From positions 310,001 through 374,000 of the forward strand of contig NZ_SDQC01000002.1 in assembly GCF_004153445.1 (NCBI RefSeq): a stretch of 64,000 nt of DNA, in the 5' to 3' direction. Within the stretch, counting starts at the first letter, position 1. Each line of letters starts with the position of its first letter. Shown piece by piece: positions 31,224-44,046 of this stretch. Under the pieces are notes generated by a model, which made no database searches, was not told the origin of the DNA, and was given only the letters and a program-made list of their open reading frames with translations. The DNA is from Allopusillimonas soli. GTDB taxonomy: Bacteria; Pseudomonadota; Gammaproteobacteria; Burkholderiales; Burkholderiaceae_B. A program made the translations under genes and the position numbers.

Positions 31224-33563
31224 ATGTCGTTTAGCCGGAAAACCCCTTTCCTCAGGCGCGGTTTGCCCGCCTTGCTGGTGGCGCTGTGTCTTCCAGCGCT
31301 GGCCCATGCATTCACGCCATTTGTGGTGCGTGACATCAAGGTAAATGGCATACAGCGAGTGGATGCCGGCACCGTGTTCAGCTACCTTCCCGTGAAAGTG
31401 GGCGAAGAGTTCACTGAAGCCGAAGCCAGCGAGGCTATCCAGCGTCTTTATGCCACCGGCTTCTTCAGCGACGTCCGCATCGACACCGCCAACGATGTGC
31501 TGGTGGTTACAGTCCAAGAACGCCCCACCATCGCGTCGGTCAGCTTCAACGGCATGCGCGAGTTCGACGTCAAGGGCATCACGCAGTCGCTCAAGCAGGT
31601 TGGCTTCGGCGAGGGCAGGGTGTTCGACCGCTCCATGCTGGAACGCGCGCGTTTCGAGATCGAACAGCAATATCTTTCCAAGGGCAAGTACGGCGTCGAG
31701 ATCAACCCCATCATCACGCCGCTGCCCCGCAATCGGGTTGGCGTCAGCTTCGAGATATTCGAAGGCGAGCGCGCCCACATCAGTGAGATCGATGTCGTTG
31801 GGAACAAGGCCTTTTCCGATGACGACCTGCGCGATGCAATGGACTTGACCACGTCCGGCATGATGACGTGGTACACCGGAACCGACAAGTATTCGCGCGA
31901 GAAGCTCGAGGGCGATGTCGAGCGCCTGCGATCCTTCTACCTGGATCGCGGCTATCTTGAATACTCTGCCGAAGCGCCCCAAGTCACGATTTCTCCTGAC
32001 CGCGAACACATCTTTATCACCTACACCGTGCATGAGGGCGAGCCCTACAAGGTGCGCAGCGTAAAGCTGGCCGGCAATCTGCTGGGGCTCGACAAGAACA
32101 TCCGGGATCTGATTGCCGTCAAGGCAGGGGAAACATTCTCGGCGGCCAAGACCAATGAAACGGCCAAGGCGATCACTGAATATCTGGGTACGCTGGGGTA
32201 TGCCTTCGCCAACGTCAATCCCAACCCGGTGCTGGACCGCGACAATCACGAAACCGACTTGACCTTCTACGTCGACCCTGGCAAGCGCGTTTATGTGCGG
32301 CGTATCCAGATCGGCGGCAACACGCGCACGCGGGACGAAGTCATCCGGCGGGAAATGCGCCAGCAGGAAGCGGCATGGTACGACGGCAACGCTATCAAGA
32401 ATTCTCGTGACCGCATCGACCGCCTGGGTTACTTCAACGAGGTCAATGTGTCGTCGGAGCCGGTGCCAGGCTCGACCGACCAGATCGATATCAACGTCGA
32501 TGTCAAGGAAAAGCCCACGGGCCTGATCAACCTGGGGGTGGGCTATGGCTCCACGGACGGCGTGATTCTGTCCGCCGGCATCAGCCAGGACAACATTTTT
32601 GGCAGCGGCAACACCCTTTCGCTGAACGTGAACACCAGCGAATACAACCGCGCGCTTGTGCTGTCGCATACTGACCCATACTGGACCAAGGACGGCATCA
32701 GCAAGACCACGTCGCTGTATTATCGCCGCACCACACCCTATGACAGCGACCGCGGCATCGGCGACTACCGCGTCACGTCATACGGCGGTGGCTTCAATTT
32801 CGGTGTGCCCATCTCCGAGAATGATCGCATTTTCGCCGGCGTCAGCTACGAGCACAACAAGCTGTCGGACCTGAGCGCCAACTACACGCCGCAGGCTTAT
32901 CATGACTTTGTCGATCAGTACGGCGAATCCACGAACTCCCTGATCTTCAACCTGGGCTGGTCCAAGGATACGCGCGACAGTGCGCTGGCACCCACCGAGG
33001 GCAGTTATACGCGTCTGTCGGCCGATTACTCCATACTCGACCTTGAGTACTACATGCTCAGCGCGCAGCAGCAGTATTATCTGCCTCTGGGCCGCGCCTT
33101 CACGCTGGCGTTCAATGGCGCCGTCGACTGGGGCCGCTCGTACAGCGACAAGGACTTCCCGGTCATCAAGAACGTCTATGGCGGCGGCATCGGCTCCGTA
33201 CGCGGCTACGAGGGCGCGTCGCTGGGCGGGCGCGATACCAAGACGGATGATTATCTGGGTGGTGCGCGGCGCGTATACGGCAACATGCAGCTTTATCTGC
33301 CTTTCCCGGGTGCCACGCGCGACCGCACCTTGCGCTGGTTCATCTTTGCCGATGCCGGGAAGGTCGATAATCCGCAGGGCGAATGCGCGAGGGGCCGCAA
33401 CAACTATGCAGAAGATCCATGCGGCTGGAAGTATGCGGCCGGTGTGGGCCTGTCGTGGCAGTCTCCGCTGGGGCCCCTGCAGCTTTCATGGGGCCGCGCT
33501 CTCAACGCCAAGGAAGGGGACGACAAGCAGGCGTTCCAGTTCCAGATTGGCACCGGTTTTTGA
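31224..33563 (+). CDS. bamA: Outer membrane protein assembly factor BamA
   Basis: 779 residues. A signal peptide (about residues 1-29, ending ALAHA-FTPF) is followed by five POTRA domains (about 30-430) and a 16-strand Omp85 barrel. Barrel signatures include SVRGYEGASLGGRD (the VRGF/Y-type lid-lock motif near residue 655) and the terminal aromatic GTGF. BamA folds beta-barrel proteins into the outer membrane. AAGGA stands 9 bases before the ATG. Its partner chaperone gene skp/ompH follows. Confidence 0.97.
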   Translation: MSFSRKTPFLRRGLPALLVALCLPALAHAFTPFVVRDIKVNGIQRVDAGTVFSYLPVKVGEEFTEAEASEAIQRLYATGFFSDVRIDTANDVLVVTVQERPTIASVSFNGMREFDVKGITQSLKQVGFGEGRVFDRSMLERARFEIEQQYLSKGKYGVEINPIITPLPRNRVGVSFEIFEGERAHISEIDVVGNKAFSDDDLRDAMDLTTSGMMTWYTGTDKYSREKLEGDVERLRSFYLDRGYLEYSAEAPQVTISPDREHIFITYTVHEGEPYKVRSVKLAGNLLGLDKNIRDLIAVKAGETFSAAKTNETAKAITEYLGTLGYAFANVNPNPVLDRDNHETDLTFYVDPGKRVYVRRIQIGGNTRTRDEVIRREMRQQEAAWYDGNAIKNSRDRIDRLGYFNEVNVSSEPVPGSTDQIDINVDVKEKPTGLINLGVGYGSTDGVILSAGISQDNIFGSGNTLSLNVNTSEYNRALVLSHTDPYWTKDGISKTTSLYYRRTTPYDSDRGIGDYRVTSYGGGFNFGVPISENDRIFAGVSYEHNKLSDLSANYTPQAYHDFVDQYGESTNSLIFNLGWSKDTRDSALAPTEGSYTRLSADYSILDLEYYMLSAQQQYYLPLGRAFTLAFNGAVDWGRSYSDKDFPVIKNVYGGGIGSVRGYEGASLGGRDTKTDDYLGGARRVYGNMQLYLPFPGATRDRTLRWFIFADAGKVDNPQGECARGRNNYAEDPCGWKYAAGVGLSWQSPLGPLQLSWGRALNAKEGDDKQAFQFQIGTGF

Positions 33564-33625
33564 TGCTGGCTATTTAATGGCACAATAAACGTTTTATCTC
33601 TGCTATTTTGCAAGGTAGATTTTTC

Positions 33626-34180
33626 ATGAAGTCTCAATTCGCTTTAAAAGTTTCCTCCACCATTCAAGGCCTTGCCCGTGGCAACCGTGCCCTCGTGCTG
33701 GCAGCGGTGCTGGGGCTAGGTGCCGCCATCGCAACGCCGGTACAGGCGCAGGGCACCAAGATCGGCTTTGTGAGCACAGAACGCATTCTGCGCGACTCCA
33801 AGCCGGCCAAGGCCGCGCAAGCCAAGATCGAAGCCGAGTTCAAGGGCCGAGACCAGGAGTTGCAGAATCTGGCCAACAAGCTGCGCAGCCAGGCCCAAAA
33901 ATTCGACAAGGACGCACCGGTATTGTCCGAATCCGACCGCATCAAGCGTCAACGCCAACTGGCCGAACTCGATTCCGACTTGCAGCGCAAGCGTCGTGAG
34001 TTCCAGGAAGACTTCAATCGCCGTCGCAACGAAGAGTTCTCGCACATTGTCGAGAAAGCGGATGCCGCCATCAAGAAGATTGCGGAGCAACAAGGTTACG
34101 ACCTTATCATCCAGGATGCCGTCACGGTCAGCCCGCGCGTGGATATTACCGACCAGGTCATGAAGGCGCTGGGCGGCTAA
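33626..34180 (+). CDS. OmpH/Skp family periplasmic chaperone
   Basis: 184 residues. The signal peptide ends at about residue 40 (ATPVQA-QGTK). The mature protein begins with the family strand KIGFVSTERILRDSKPAKAA and continues as a long charged coiled coil (about 65-150), the tentacles of Skp, ending in YDLIIQDAVTVSPRVDITDQV. Skp holds unfolded outer-membrane proteins for BamA. An in-frame ATG at 33608 lacks a ribosome site, whereas AAGGT stands before 33626. Confidence 0.94.
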   Translation: MKSQFALKVSSTIQGLARGNRALVLAAVLGLGAAIATPVQAQGTKIGFVSTERILRDSKPAKAAQAKIEAEFKGRDQELQNLANKLRSQAQKFDKDAPVLSESDRIKRQRQLAELDSDLQRKRREFQEDFNRRRNEEFSHIVEKADAAIKKIAEQQGYDLIIQDAVTVSPRVDITDQVMKALGG

Positions 34181-34186
34181 GCGGTC

Positions 34187-35281
34187 ATGCCAGTATTGCT
34201 AGCGCCCGAGCAGGCGCCGACTTTGCAAACGCTGCTGGCCAACGCCAATATCCTGGGCCTCGACTGCAGGCCGCTAGAAACCGACAACGAGCCCAGTCCC
34301 CGCATTCGGGGGCTGGGCTCGTTGCTTTCCGCCGGCCCCGAGGAGATTTCCTTCCTCGCCAATCCGCGGCTCAGCCATCAGCTGTCTTCCTGCAGGGCGG
34401 CGGCCGTCATCATGACCGAAGCTGATCGGCAGCGCCATGCCGTAGCCGATGCACCTTACAAAGTGGTGCTGTGCCCGGAACCTTATCTCATGTACGCCCT
34501 GCTAGCTCAGTGGTTTGATCAGCACCGGCTGGAAGGTCTTGCTGCCGGCATTCATCCCAGCGCCACTATCGCGCCCGATGCGCAAGTTGCCCCAGATGTG
34601 TCCGTGGGCCCGCATTGTGTCGTTGAATCGGGCGTGCGGATTGGCGCTGGCACGCGACTTGGGCCCGGCTGCATTATCGGTGCGGGCTCGACATTGGGCC
34701 GGGACTGCTTATTGCATGCGCGCGTCACGCTTTATCACGGCGTGAGTGTGGGCGATCGGGCTATTTTGCACGCCGGGTGCGTCCTGGGCGCCGACGGCTT
34801 CGGCTTTGCTCCCGATCCGCGCAGCGGGTCCGGTGCCTGGACTAAAATCGCACAGATTGGCGGCGTGCAACTGGGCGACGACGTCGAGATCGGCGCGAAC
34901 ACGACAGTGGACCGCGGTGCGATCGAAAACACGATAATTGGCGATGGCGTCAAGCTTGACAATCAAATCATGATCGCTCACAACGTCAAGATAGGAGAGC
35001 ATACCGCCATTGCGGCCTGTGTTGGCGTTGCCGGCTCGACCATTATCGGAAAGCGTTGCACAATTGGCGGTGCCGCCATGCTGTCGGGCCATCTGGTGCT
35101 TGGCGACGATGTCCATGTTTCGGGCGGCACGGCCATTACATCCAGCGTTTCCGAGCCGGGACGCTATACCGGCGTCTATCCGTTTGCGGCCCATCGCGAC
35201 TGGCAACACAATGCTGCTGTCATCAGCCAACTGGCGCAACTGCGGCGCCGGGTCAGAGCAACTGAAAAAAACAACTCTTGA
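34187..35281 (+). CDS. lpxD: UDP-3-O-acylglucosamine N-acyltransferase LpxD
   Basis: 364 residues against about 340 in E. coli. It N-acylates UDP-3-O-acyl-glucosamine in lipid A synthesis. An N-terminal uridine-binding domain ([17 protein letters not shown]) leads to a left-handed beta-helix of hexapeptide repeats (about 125-300), with the catalytic-histidine region [17 protein letters not shown], and a C-terminal helix. An unusually strong inverted repeat sits inside the reading frame at codons 33-46 (34285-34324), listed separately. It starts 6 bases after skp and is read towards fabZ. Confidence 0.95.
34285..34324. repeat. Near-perfect inverted repeat inside lpxD (18-bp stem, 4-base loop)
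   Basis: The left arm (34285-34302, starting CAACGAGCCCAG) pairs with the right arm (34307-34324, ending CTGGGCTCGTTG) over 18 positions. The only exception is a G-U wobble (T34297/G34312). The loop is CATT. Because of the symmetry both strands can encode almost the same peptide, NEPSPR[I/M]RGLGS. No T-run follows, so it is not a normal terminator. Confidence 0.85.
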
Positions 35282-35351
35282 AACCCCTTCCAGGCACTGG
35301 AAAGACTACAGCGCATCACCCCCGGTGATGCAAACAAGCAGGAATCATAAG

Positions 35352-35804
35352 ATGGAACTCGACATCAGACAAATCATGGACCGCCTCCCGCATCGATATC
35401 CGATGCTGCTGGTCGACCGGGTACTGGAAATGGTGCCTGGCAAGCGCGTGGTCGCTATCAAGAATGTCTCCATGAACGAGCCTTTCTTCACTGGGCACTT
35501 TCCTCATCACCCAGTCATGCCTGGCGTGCTGATCATCGAAGCGCTGGCTCAGGCCGCCGCGCTGTTTTCCTTTGAGGACGATAGCGAAGTCAATCCGTCC
35601 GACAAGAAGATTGCCTACTACCTGGTTGGCGTGGACGGGGCGCGTTTCCGCCGCCCCGTTGTCCCGGGCGACCAACTGCGGCTGGAAGTCTCGGCCGACC
35701 GCATCAGCCGTTCGATCTGTAAGTACACGGCGCAGGCGACCGTGGATGGCCAGGTTGCGGCCGAGGCCAAGCTGATGTGTGCAATACGTGTGCTGGAATC
35801 GTGA
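35352..35804 (+). CDS. fabZ: 3-hydroxyacyl-[ACP] dehydratase FabZ
   Basis: 150 residues, a hot-dog-fold dehydratase of fatty acid elongation. The catalytic His lies in [14 protein letters not shown] and the catalytic Glu in [14 protein letters not shown]. It competes with LpxA for 3-hydroxyacyl-ACP, which explains the conserved lpxD-fabZ-lpxA order. The true start is 35352, with [20 protein letters not shown]; the longer open frame reaches back into lpxD. Its stop is 2 bases from the lpxA ATG. Confidence 0.97.
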
Positions 35805-40258: not shown

Positions 40259-42622
40259 ATGTCTTATGTAGTGCCATTCGAGCAGCTCCGCATGACGGAT
40301 GTGGACTCGGTAGGAGGTAAAAACGCATCACTTGGTGAAATGATCAGCCAGCTGTCCGAGGCGGGGGTACGCGTCCCGGGTGGCTTTGCGACCACAGCGC
40401 AGGCTTTCCGCGATTTTCTCAAGTCGACGGGGCTGGACGAGCGCATTGCCGCTCGCCTCGAAACGCTGAATTCCGAAGATGTTCGCGAATTGGCCAATGC
40501 TGGGGCAGAGATCCGTCAATGGATCGTGGATACGCCGCTGCCTGCCGAGTTCGAGCAGGCGATACGCGCGTCCTTTGCCGAGCTTGACGCGGACGGCAAG
40601 GGCAGTTTTGCCGTGCGCTCCTCCGCCACGGCCGAAGATCTCCCCGACGCCTCTTTTGCCGGCCAACAGGAAACCTTCCTGAACGTGGTCGGCATCGATG
40701 ATGTGCTCGACAAGATCAAGCAGGTGTTTGCTTCGCTCTACAACGACCGGGCGATATCCTACCGGGTCCACAAGGGCTACGCGCACGCCGAAGTCGCGCT
40801 TTCCGCCGGCATCCAGCGCATGGTGCGCTCCGATTGCGGCAGCGCGGGCGTCATGTTCACTTTGGACACGGAGTCGGGCTTCTCCGACGTGGTGTTCATC
40901 ACATCTTCCTATGGCCTGGGCGAGACCGTCGTGCAAGGCGCCGTCAATCCAGACGAGTTCTACGTCTTCAAGCCGACCTTGGCTTCGGGCCACTATCCCA
41001 TTGTGAGCCGCCGCATCGGATCCAAGCTCATCAAGATGGAGTTCGACCCCGAACGCGCTTCCGGTCACGCTGTGCGCACCGTGGATGTTCCTGTTTCCGA
41101 ACGCAACCGTTACTCGCTCAGCGACGACGAAGTCATCGAGCTGGCCCGTTACGCGGTCATTATCGAAAAGCATTATCAACGCCCCATGGATATTGAGTGG
41201 GGGCGCGACGGTATCGATGGCAAACTGTACATTCTGCAGGCGCGGCCCGAAACCGTGAAGTCCCAACACGGCAGCAACGACATCCAGGAACGTTACCGCC
41301 TGAAGGCTACGGGCGATATCCTCGTCACTGGTCGCGCCATCGGCCAGAAAATCGGCTCCGGCCGCGTCAGAGTCGTGGCCGATGTGTCCGAAATGGACAC
41401 GGTCCAGGCGGGTGATGTGTTGGTCACCGACATGACGGACCCCAATTGGGAACCGGTCATGAAGCTGGCCTCGGCCATTGTCACCAATCGTGGCGGACGC
41501 ACCTGCCACGCTGCCATTATCGCCCGTGAACTCGGTATTCCCGCCGTGGTTGGTTGCGCCAATGCTACCGATGTGCTCGGCAGCGGCCGCGAGGTTACGG
41601 TGTCGTGCGCCGAGGGCGACGAGGGGCGCATCTACGACGGCCTTATCGAAACGGAAATCGAAGAGGTGCATTGGGGAGAAATGCCCAAGATCGGCGTAAA
41701 GATCATGATGAATGTGGGCAACCCGCAACTCGCATTCGATTTTTCCCAGATTCCCAACGAAGGGGTTGGCCTGGCGCGCCTCGAGTTCATCATCAACAAC
41801 AACATCAATGTGCACCCCAAGGCGGTGCTCGACTATCCCAATGTCGATGGCGAACTCAAGCTGGCCGTCGAATCGGCGGCCCGAGGCTATGCCAGCCCGC
41901 GCGCCTTTTTCGTCGAAAAACTTGCGGAAGGCGTGGCCACGCTGGCGGCGGCCTTCTATCCCAAGCCCGTCATTGTGCGTCTTTCCGATTTCAAGTCCAA
42001 CGAGTATCGTAAATTGGTCGGCGGCTCGCGCTACGAGCCTGAGGAAGAAAACCCCATGTTGGGCTTCCGCGGCGCATCGCGCTACATTTCCGAAGACTTT
42101 GAGGCGTGTTTTCGCATGGAATGCGAGGCGCTCAAGAAAGTGCGCGACGATATGGGCCTGACCAACGTCGAAATCATGGTGCCCTTTGTCAGGACACTGT
42201 CTCAGGCGGAGCGCGTCGTTAGTCTCCTGGCGCGCCATGGCCTTGCCCGCGGCGAGAATGGCCTGAAGCTGGTCATGATGTGCGAGGTGCCCTCCAATGC
42301 CATTCTGGCCGAGCAGTTCCTTGAGTATTTTGATGGCTTCTCCATCGGCTCAAACGACATGACCCAGCTCACGCTGGGCCTGGACCGCGATTCCGGCATG
42401 GAGTTGCTGGCTGCCGACTTTGACGAGCGCGACGAGGCGGTGCAGTTCATGCTGCGCCGTGCCATCCAGGCCTGCCTGAAGGCTGGAAAGTATGTAGGCA
42501 TATGCGGCCAGGGCCCCAGCGACCATCCAGATTTGGCGCAGTGGCTGCGAGATGAGGGCATCCTCTCCATGTCCCTGAATCCGGACACTGTCGTCGATAC
42601 CTGGCAGCGTCTGGCCGAATAG
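40259..42622 (+). CDS. ppsA: Phosphoenolpyruvate synthase
   Basis: 787 residues, close to the 792 of E. coli PpsA. It makes PEP from pyruvate and ATP, releasing AMP and phosphate. The N-terminal ATP-grasp domain opens with [16 protein letters not shown]. The swivelling phosphohistidine domain has [20 protein letters not shown] near residue 414. The C-terminal TIM barrel has [21 protein letters not shown] and the CGQGPSDHP catalytic-cysteine segment. AAAGGTGAC before the ATG fixes the start. It is regulated by the divergent ppsR product. Confidence 0.97.
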
Positions 42623-42682: not shown

Positions 42683-42716
42683 AATATGGGCTGGGCTTTC
42701 AAACCCAGCCCATATT
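42683..42716. repeat. Perfect 13-bp inverted repeat between ppsA and ndh
   Basis: AATATGGGCTGGG (42683-42695) and CCCAGCCCATATT (42704-42716) are exactly complementary around an 8-base loop CTTTCAAA. It ends 19 bases before the ndh ATG. It may terminate ppsA, but only CAATTC follows instead of a T-run, so an ndh leader hairpin or operator is equally possible. Confidence 0.75.
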
Positions 42717-42735: not shown

Positions 42736-44046
42736 ATGAATGATCGGGCGCTTCATAAAATCGTCATTGTCGGGGGTGGCGCAGGCGGCCTGGAGTTGGC
42801 GGCAAAACTCGGCCGCCAGTTCGGGCCGGCGCATGTCACGCTCATTGACCAGTCCGACAGCCACATCTGGAAGCCCTCCCTGCATGAAGTCGCTGCGGGG
42901 ACGCTGGACATCCATCGCGAAGACCTGTCCTATTTCATGCTGGCGCGCGATTGTGGCTTCACCTTCGTGCTGGGGGAAATGAAGGGCCTGGATCGCCAGG
43001 GTCGCACGGTGCAACTCAAGGCTGTGCACGACGACCACGGGAACCCGGTGCTTCCCGACAGATCTGTACCCTACGACACCCTGGTGCTGGCGATAGGCAG
43101 CAAGTCCAATTTCTTCGGCACGCCGGGCGCGGACGAGCATGCCATCGCCCTGGATTCCACCGCCCAGGCGGAGCGCTTTCGCCTGCGGCTTCTGCATGAA
43201 TTCGTCACGCTCAACCGGCGCAAGGCCCAGGCGGACGATGGCGTGCTGGACATTGCCATCGTGGGCGGAGGCGCCACAGGCGTCGAACTGGCCGCTGAGT
43301 TGGTGGAAGCCTGCGCCAGCCTGGTGTTCTATGGCTTGAATGCACTCGATCCGCGGCGCGATATCCGCATTACCCTGCTGGAGGGTGCCCCACGCATTCT
43401 GTCAGCCCTCCCAGAGAAGATGTCAGCGACCGCGCAACGACTGCTTGAGGAGCGCGGTATCCGGATTCATACGTCGGTCAAGGTGACGCGTGTGAACGAA
43501 CGCTCGCTGCTTGACAGCGACGGGCGCGAGTATCCCGCTGACCTGTGCGTGTGGGCTGCCGGTATCGAGGCGCCTGCCATGCTGGCAACGCTGGGCCTGG
43601 AAACCAGCCGCAATCATCAAGTTGTGGTCGATGGCAGACTGCAGACAACCGATTCATCGATTTTTGCCATGGGGGACTGCGCTCATGCGCCATGGGCGGG
43701 CGAGGACAGGCCGCTGCCGGCCCGGGCGCAGGTTGCCCATCAGCAGGCCACTTATCTGAAGGCCATACTGGCGTCCAGGATTCGCGGAGAATGCGCGCCA
43801 GCGCAGCCATTTCGTTTCCGGGATTACGGATCGTTGGTGTCAGTGGGCCACACGCGCGGCGTAGGAAGCCTCATGGGCGTGCTGTCGGGCAAGAGCTGGT
43901 TCGTGGAAGGCCTGCTGGCCAGGCTCATGTACATGAGCCTGCACCTCATGCATCACCGCGCGGTGCTCGGCACAATGCGCACGGCCGCTCTGGCGCTGGG
44001 ACGGCTGCTCATGAAGCGTGGTGCGCCGCGAGTCAAGCTGCATTGA
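42736..44046 (+). CDS. ndh: Type II NADH dehydrogenase (NDH-2)
   Basis: 436 residues. This single-subunit, non-proton-pumping enzyme passes electrons from NADH to quinone. The FAD motif VIVGGGAGGLELAAKLG is at the N terminus, the NADH motif IAIVGGGATGVELAAELVE is near residue 173, and FAMGDCAHAPWAG marks the C-terminal FAD site. The C-terminal amphipathic or hydrophobic stretch (LLARLMYMSLHLMHHRAVLG) is the membrane anchor. GGAAGGT precedes the ATG. It can feed the bd oxidase encoded near 61-63 kb. Confidence 0.93.
   Translation: MNDRALHKIVIVGGGAGGLELAAKLGRQFGPAHVTLIDQSDSHIWKPSLHEVAAGTLDIHREDLSYFMLARDCGFTFVLGEMKGLDRQGRTVQLKAVHDDHGNPVLPDRSVPYDTLVLAIGSKSNFFGTPGADEHAIALDSTAQAERFRLRLLHEFVTLNRRKAQADDGVLDIAIVGGGATGVELAAELVEACASLVFYGLNALDPRRDIRITLLEGAPRILSALPEKMSATAQRLLEERGIRIHTSVKVTRVNERSLLDSDGREYPADLCVWAAGIEAPAMLATLGLETSRNHQVVVDGRLQTTDSSIFAMGDCAHAPWAGEDRPLPARAQVAHQQATYLKAILASRIRGECAPAQPFRFRDYGSLVSVGHTRGVGSLMGVLSGKSWFVEGLLARLMYMSLHLMHHRAVLGTMRTAALALGRLLMKRGAPRVKLH

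Follow-up and report, generated by a model that had tools for sequence, protein, structure and literature searches.

The two arms of a long palindrome inside the lpxD gene of Allopusillimonas soli are kept by a constraint on Watson-Crick pairing, which is revealed by covariation among related sequences. Because the arms are matched by silent changes in many relatives, this stretch of lpxD seems to carry a second, nucleotide-level signal besides the protein that it encodes. The hairpin is located in a contiguous stretch of 64,000 nucleotides, called "the window" here, in which the following features are relevant.

31224 to 33563, plus strand: open reading frame (ORF) of the next gene upstream of skp, which we take to be bamA, the name given in a first-pass annotation of the window
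33626 to 34180, plus strand: skp, encoding an OmpH-like chaperone (Pfam OmpH)
34187 to 35281, plus strand: lpxD, 364 codons (Pfam LpxD and Hexapep)
34285 to 34302, plus strand: 5' arm of the hairpin, from the last base of codon 33 to codon 39
34303 to 34306, plus strand: hairpin loop, CATT
34307 to 34324, plus strand: 3' arm of the hairpin, on the conserved codons RGLGSL, followed by CTTTCCGC

The hairpin (34285 to 34324) occupies nucleotides 99 to 138 of lpxD. Its 18-nt arms are 94% complementary. They form 17 Watson-Crick pairs and one G-U pair, as the first-pass annotation had described. The same annotation judged such symmetry to be unlikely by chance, and folding calculations bear this out. 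The predicted minimum free energy of positions 34265 to 34344 is -49.4 kcal/mol, compared with -30.7 ± 3.6 kcal/mol for 200 dinucleotide-preserving shuffles (z = -5.2), none of which matched the native value. When synonymous codons are shuffled instead, which leaves both the protein and the codon usage of lpxD unchanged, the value for 40 shuffles is -27.8 kcal/mol. The resulting z of -4.66 is the lowest among 55 stretches of lpxD analyzed in this manner.

The element is also exceptional on larger scales. By a hairpin score of our own, it reaches 17, which is the top value in the window; the runner-up scores 13, and the best hairpins in six Markov-simulated windows score at most 13. It is the second strongest hairpin in 434 kb of sequence sampled from the same genome, a total that includes 10 kb twice, since part of the sampled sequence overlaps the window. 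The one hairpin that exceeds it in this sample has 26-nt arms and resides in no ORF of at least 120 amino acids (L215:4747-4804).

An intrinsic terminator is ruled out, because no U-tract or T-run lies behind the stem. The sequence CTTTCCGC is found there instead, and the stem is not among the terminator-like sites. A search of Rfam with positions 33500 to 35500 yielded 11 weak matches, none of which reached its gathering score.

The start of lpxD is separated by 6 nt from the end of skp. The skp start at 33626 (MKSQ...) is our own reading, and the mechanical ORF begins at 33608. LpxD has 364 amino acids here, compared with 341 in 3eh0_A (E. coli LpxD), in line with the remark in the first-pass annotation that it is about 20 residues longer than the E. 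coli protein. Alignment of the two begins at residue 39 here and residue 24 there, which implies about 15 extra residues ahead of the conserved domain. The general length of LpxD, including its long N-terminus, is common to the family alignment. The Pfam LpxD domain starts at residue 38, and the variable segment that precedes it contains the 5' arm. The N-terminal segment tolerates length changes, given that LpxD of one Bordetella entry (L177) carries some 20 additional residues immediately before the hairpin codons.

The two strands of the hairpin encode nearly identical 13-residue peptides, as had been noticed earlier, because third codon positions pair with third codon positions. For the same reason, a silent change in one arm can be compensated by a silent change in the other. 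This property makes covariation at synonymous sites informative, and the alignment of LpxD and its DNA from relatives, a check that the first-pass annotation had recommended, does reveal that the arms covary at such sites in one register.

The comparison drew on 148 entries, including the window. Two entries (L201 and L055) were left out because our rule did not recognize their start. Merging of entries with identical first 300 nt left 123, and one of these (L042) was dropped because the rule placed its start too late. The result was a collection of 122 distinct LpxD N-termini. A near set of 51 sequences was defined by an LpxD identity threshold of 67.8% and excludes L145 and L149, which belong to the same genus as a Bordetella record; this set was chosen after the rows had been inspected. 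The register was anchored on the conserved RG(L/I)G codons, and the five third-third pairs were counted.

In the near set, 165 of these third-third pairs are Watson-Crick pairs, compared with 104.6 expected from column composition. The excess is also present in a dereplicated near set (n = 31; 95 observed and 62.0 expected), and it has the same sign in 78 sequences dereplicated from all 122 (174 observed and 129.1 expected). A scan of 701 registers across lpxD places the hairpin register at z = 9.06 (164 pairs and 103.6 expected), whereas the runner-up reaches 3.16. Control registers were taken from neighboring genes, namely 487 from the C-terminal part of bamA, 347 from skp and 275 from fabZ (about 1,100). 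The largest excess among them is 23.3 pairs, compared with 60.4 at the hairpin.

The signal persists when shared ancestry is taken into account. A tree of the 51 near sequences and 12 chosen others was built from sequence that excludes the first 180 nt of lpxD, and pair models were fitted on the 51 near sequences. Both these models and the parsimony counts refer to one gene-region tree, consider third positions alone and take their neutral expectation from column frequencies. With cognate partners, the pair model gives 2dlnL values of 56.8 at a fixed rate and 41.2 at a free rate, whereas wrong partners give 2.7 and 5.0, with the opposite sign. Changes from one Watson-Crick pair to another on the same branch number 12 at cognate pairs and 2.0 at non-cognate pairs. 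When all 18 pairs are considered, 20 co-changes resulting in a Watson-Crick pair are distributed over 19 branches, 18 of which carry one each. For example, the sister loci L102 and L022 differ by A-T versus G-C at one pair. Changes of amino acids are also accommodated: L146 and L177, which are placed in one genus, have VP opposite GT in place of EP opposite GS, with pairing intact.

At the 17 positions, the arms of the same sequence form 11.06 pairs on average, compared with 9.44 for arms taken from two species, and a sequence's own 3' arm is better than every other sequence's 3' arm in only 7 of the 51. In 29 sequences with intact stems, synonymous diversity is lowered at codon columns 39, 42, 45, 47 and 48; it is not lowered at columns 40, 43, 44 and 46.

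The hairpin is old and is shared within the Alcaligenaceae, both by their Allopusillimonas/Pusillimonas part and by some other genera. At least 11 of the 17 Watson-Crick pairs are kept in 29 of the 51 near sequences and fewer in the remaining 22. The first-pass annotation would have abandoned its proposal if the repeat were single-copy and the same codons in relatives were unpaired, with even RNA coverage across the repeat. The repeat is indeed single-copy, but these 29 relatives retain pairing. Among 71 other family members, six keep at least 11 pairs (L146, L148, L151, L165, L168 and L177) and 65 fall below. Folding that is more stable than that of codon shuffles, with z below -2, is found in 19 of the 51 near and 13 of the 71 other sequences. 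For sequences with at least 68% identity, the mean z is -1.68 at the hairpin, compared with at most -0.91 elsewhere in lpxD when stretches overlapping the hairpin are set aside. Sequences of 60-68% identity show little or no folding excess; their mean z at the hairpin is -0.98, which is no lower than that at one other place.

Strong stems of more than one form have evolved at this site in lpxD. One-position shifts of the best register occur in L101, L106 and L103 (z = -3.65, -2.72 and -4.33, respectively), with a tie in L103, and the inner part of the stem in L007 is displaced by one base (z = -5.80). In four mutually similar family members that lack the hairpin register (L196, L197, L198 and L200), the conserved 3' part pairs with a 5' arm further upstream (z = -3.3 to -4.7), and this stem is possibly a replacement of the lpxD hairpin. 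A second strong stem follows the first in these four sequences; the energies there are -41.6 to -45.5 kcal/mol. At this site of lpxD, three further sequences (L174, L176 and L179) have a palindrome with nine perfect base pairs (9 bp), CGCAGACCC-CATGC-GGGTCTGCG, which uses another register. Its folding is unexceptional relative to codon shuffles (z = -0.9 to -1.0).

Genomes of other families were taken from the upper part of a list of matches (113 of 120 genomes matched). The hairpin register is found in none of the 20 genomes so chosen, which have at most 10 of the 18 Watson-Crick pairs, and some of them have other, unrelated stems at this place. An element characteristic of the whole order is ruled out by this result. 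The hairpin thus characterizes part of one family, and it is not essential to lpxD. One of the family entries, a metagenome bin labeled Bordetella parapertussis (L046), encodes an LpxD that is approximately the same as that of the uncultured Alcaligenaceae bins L043 and L054 and only 54% identical to the LpxD of the window. The species label therefore looks doubtful.

Two simple origins of the palindrome can be set aside with considerable confidence. Its presence in frame, with almost the same peptide on both strands, brings to mind the palindromic elements of Rickettsia, which reside in frame within protein genes, and the first-pass annotation had raised the idea of a small element accepted in this manner. 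However, LpxD of relatives aligns across the hairpin codons without any gap specific to this genome. The search for further genomic copies that had been suggested returned only the site itself on both strands, and the arm sequences differ among species while the register stays the same. The lpxD hairpin thus differs from the Rickettsia elements in that it is not inserted, has no further copies in the genome searched and has no shared arm sequence. An element of the Rickettsia type is rejected on the grounds that relatives lack a gap and the genome lacks several copies, and insertion of any small palindromic element is hardly credible. It is also very improbable that the palindrome is a by-product of protein sequence and codon bias. 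The G-rich conserved 3' arm and the proline-rich 5' arm do pair partly for free, as the 9.44 of 17 pairs formed between species demonstrates, but this explanation is contradicted by the codon-preserving shuffles and by synonymous covariation with its register and tree controls.

Dar and Sorek (2018, PMC5927463) described stems that shield an upstream gene from 3'-to-5' decay in operons with differential decay. Of 26 such stems in E. coli, 17 are embedded in the downstream coding sequence, at a mean distance of 107 ± 56 nt into it; these stems have no U-tract behind them and show better conserved wobble positions (PMC5927463). The lpxD hairpin resembles these stems in its excess stability, its position about 100 nt inside the downstream gene, the lack of a U-tract and the covariation of its wobble positions, yet 22 of the 51 near relatives keep fewer than 11 of the 17 pairs. 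Unlike the stems of Dar and Sorek, it was found by covariation, carries a signature of Watson-Crick pairs only and is known from sequence alone. Neither skp nor lpxD is named in the main text of PMC5927463, and among the matches listed from the open-license literature none concerns a hairpin in lpxD by its title. In the E. coli gal operon, the galE hairpin, an 8-bp stem, blocks exonucleases and sets the end of the galE mRNA (PMC11925234). This stem shares with the lpxD hairpin a 4-nt loop and a location at a gene junction in an operon, but it has 8 bp and a function demonstrated by mutants, whereas the lpxD hairpin has 18 bp and a presumptive function.

Because the stem is located at nucleotides 99 to 138, lacks a U-tract and has covarying wobble positions, we propose that it protects the (bamA-)skp message. 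By analogy with these stems, we tentatively favor the view that the lpxD hairpin acts as a 3' protective stem for (bamA-)skp mRNA. An endonuclease would cut the polycistronic mRNA in its lpx part, and 3'-to-5' exonucleases would then run back until the stem, some 100 nt inside lpxD, halts them. This would leave a stable message for (bamA-)skp, while lpxD and the genes behind it would decay. The matching of the two arms may be aided by template switching during replication. Of the ideas in the first-pass annotation, a split in expression between bamA-skp and the lpx genes suits the data best: the arms covary at synonymous sites, and the position and the lack of a U-tract agree with the E. coli stems, although the role in such a split is presumed from this likeness. 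Protective stems in downstream coding sequences are a known class, of which the lpxD hairpin would be a new example.

Several results do not sit easily with protection. In the tree-aware fit, the cost of a G-U pair is 1.12, that of A-C is 1.38 and that of other mismatches is 0.96, with no significant difference between G-U and A-C. Setting G-U at no cost loses 11.1 lnL units, and a cost of 0.3 loses 6.0 units. G-U is thus penalized like other mismatches, unlike in ordinary RNA stems. An alternative cause of this penalty is possible, namely that a very stable stem is selected and G-U is already too costly. Counts at the leaves of the tree, where at least 10 other pairs are intact, give 13 G-U pairs versus 26.9 expected and 4 A-C pairs versus 18.3 expected. 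This lean toward G-U was considered as proof of selection on the sense RNA and was rejected, because the tree-aware fit shows no difference. Moreover, single changes that break a Watson-Crick pair are not depleted at cognate pairs relative to non-cognate ones (to G-U, 15 versus 11.5; to A-C, 5 versus 3.75; to other combinations, 37 versus 28.75), although these are raw counts and cognate pairs spend a longer time paired. Also unfavorable to a protective role are the synonymous diversity of the arms, lowered only at some codons, the preference for a sequence's own arm in only 7 of 51, the 65 of 71 other family members with fewer than 11 pairs in addition to the 22 near ones, and the sequences of 60-68% identity with little or no folding excess.

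Penalties that are symmetric between the strands are what template-switch copying between the arms would give. The hairpin might then be a long-lived quasi-palindrome without function, in which template switching copies the other arm after a mutation, so that the arms undergo concerted evolution as DNA in a linker that tolerates amino-acid changes. We consider this somewhat unlikely. Template switching between the arms of quasipalindromes is known in E. coli (PMC7202029), and the process is also known in yeast coding genes (PMC8604942); it has been proposed both to create and to maintain RNA hairpins (PMC8794818). Like the quasipalindromes in these reports, the lpxD hairpin has a short spacer and arms that change together, amino-acid changes included. 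G-U and A-C are treated alike, as homogenization of the arms irrespective of strand would predict, and the absence of depletion among single pair-breaking changes is in keeping with copying. Once the local rate is left free, moreover, a model of copying does as well as one of selection (416.59 versus 416.06). At the rate of other third positions, however, the copying model is worse than selection by 13 lnL units. Pairing that persists across genera, changes mostly of one pair at a time and a substitution rate that is not raised all set the lpxD hairpin apart from the quasipalindromes described (PMC7202029, PMC8794818, PMC8604942). Indeed, changes are not clustered in blocks, as 18 of 19 branches carry a single pair, though copying of single mutations would look alike. 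The rate factor is below 1 in free-rate fits, and no comparable covariation appears in the approximately 1,100 other registers of neighboring genes.

It is rather doubtful that the arms remain complementary across genera mainly by strand-symmetric template-switch copying, with the inverted repeat dictating both silent and amino-acid changes and with little or no RNA function. Both processes may act, such that copying supplies matched changes and selection keeps them. A different role at the RNA level would also suit a stem that is long and stable and lies early in the coding sequence: the stem could be cleaved by RNase III, make ribosomes pause early in lpxD or slow the translation of lpxD. 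We regard such a role as improbable, given that place and form fit the protective class as well or better.

The hairpin marks a site at which a conserved gene of lipid A synthesis seems to carry a second, nucleotide-level signal, and the covariation is strong enough to be put to direct tests. If the hairpin is a protective stem, it would indicate how these bacteria separate outer-membrane assembly factors from lipid A enzymes although one transcript encodes both. If template switching is responsible, the hairpin would offer a clear example from nature of how a mutational mechanism can mimic selection on RNA structure, and it would serve as a warning for covariation screens in coding sequence.

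The window also contains a perfect 13-bp inverted repeat with an 8-nt loop at positions 42683 to 42716, between ORFs that end at 42622 and start at 42736. A 331-aa minus-strand ORF that extends across this repeat has no Pfam match, and the repeat is probably an ordinary intergenic hairpin.
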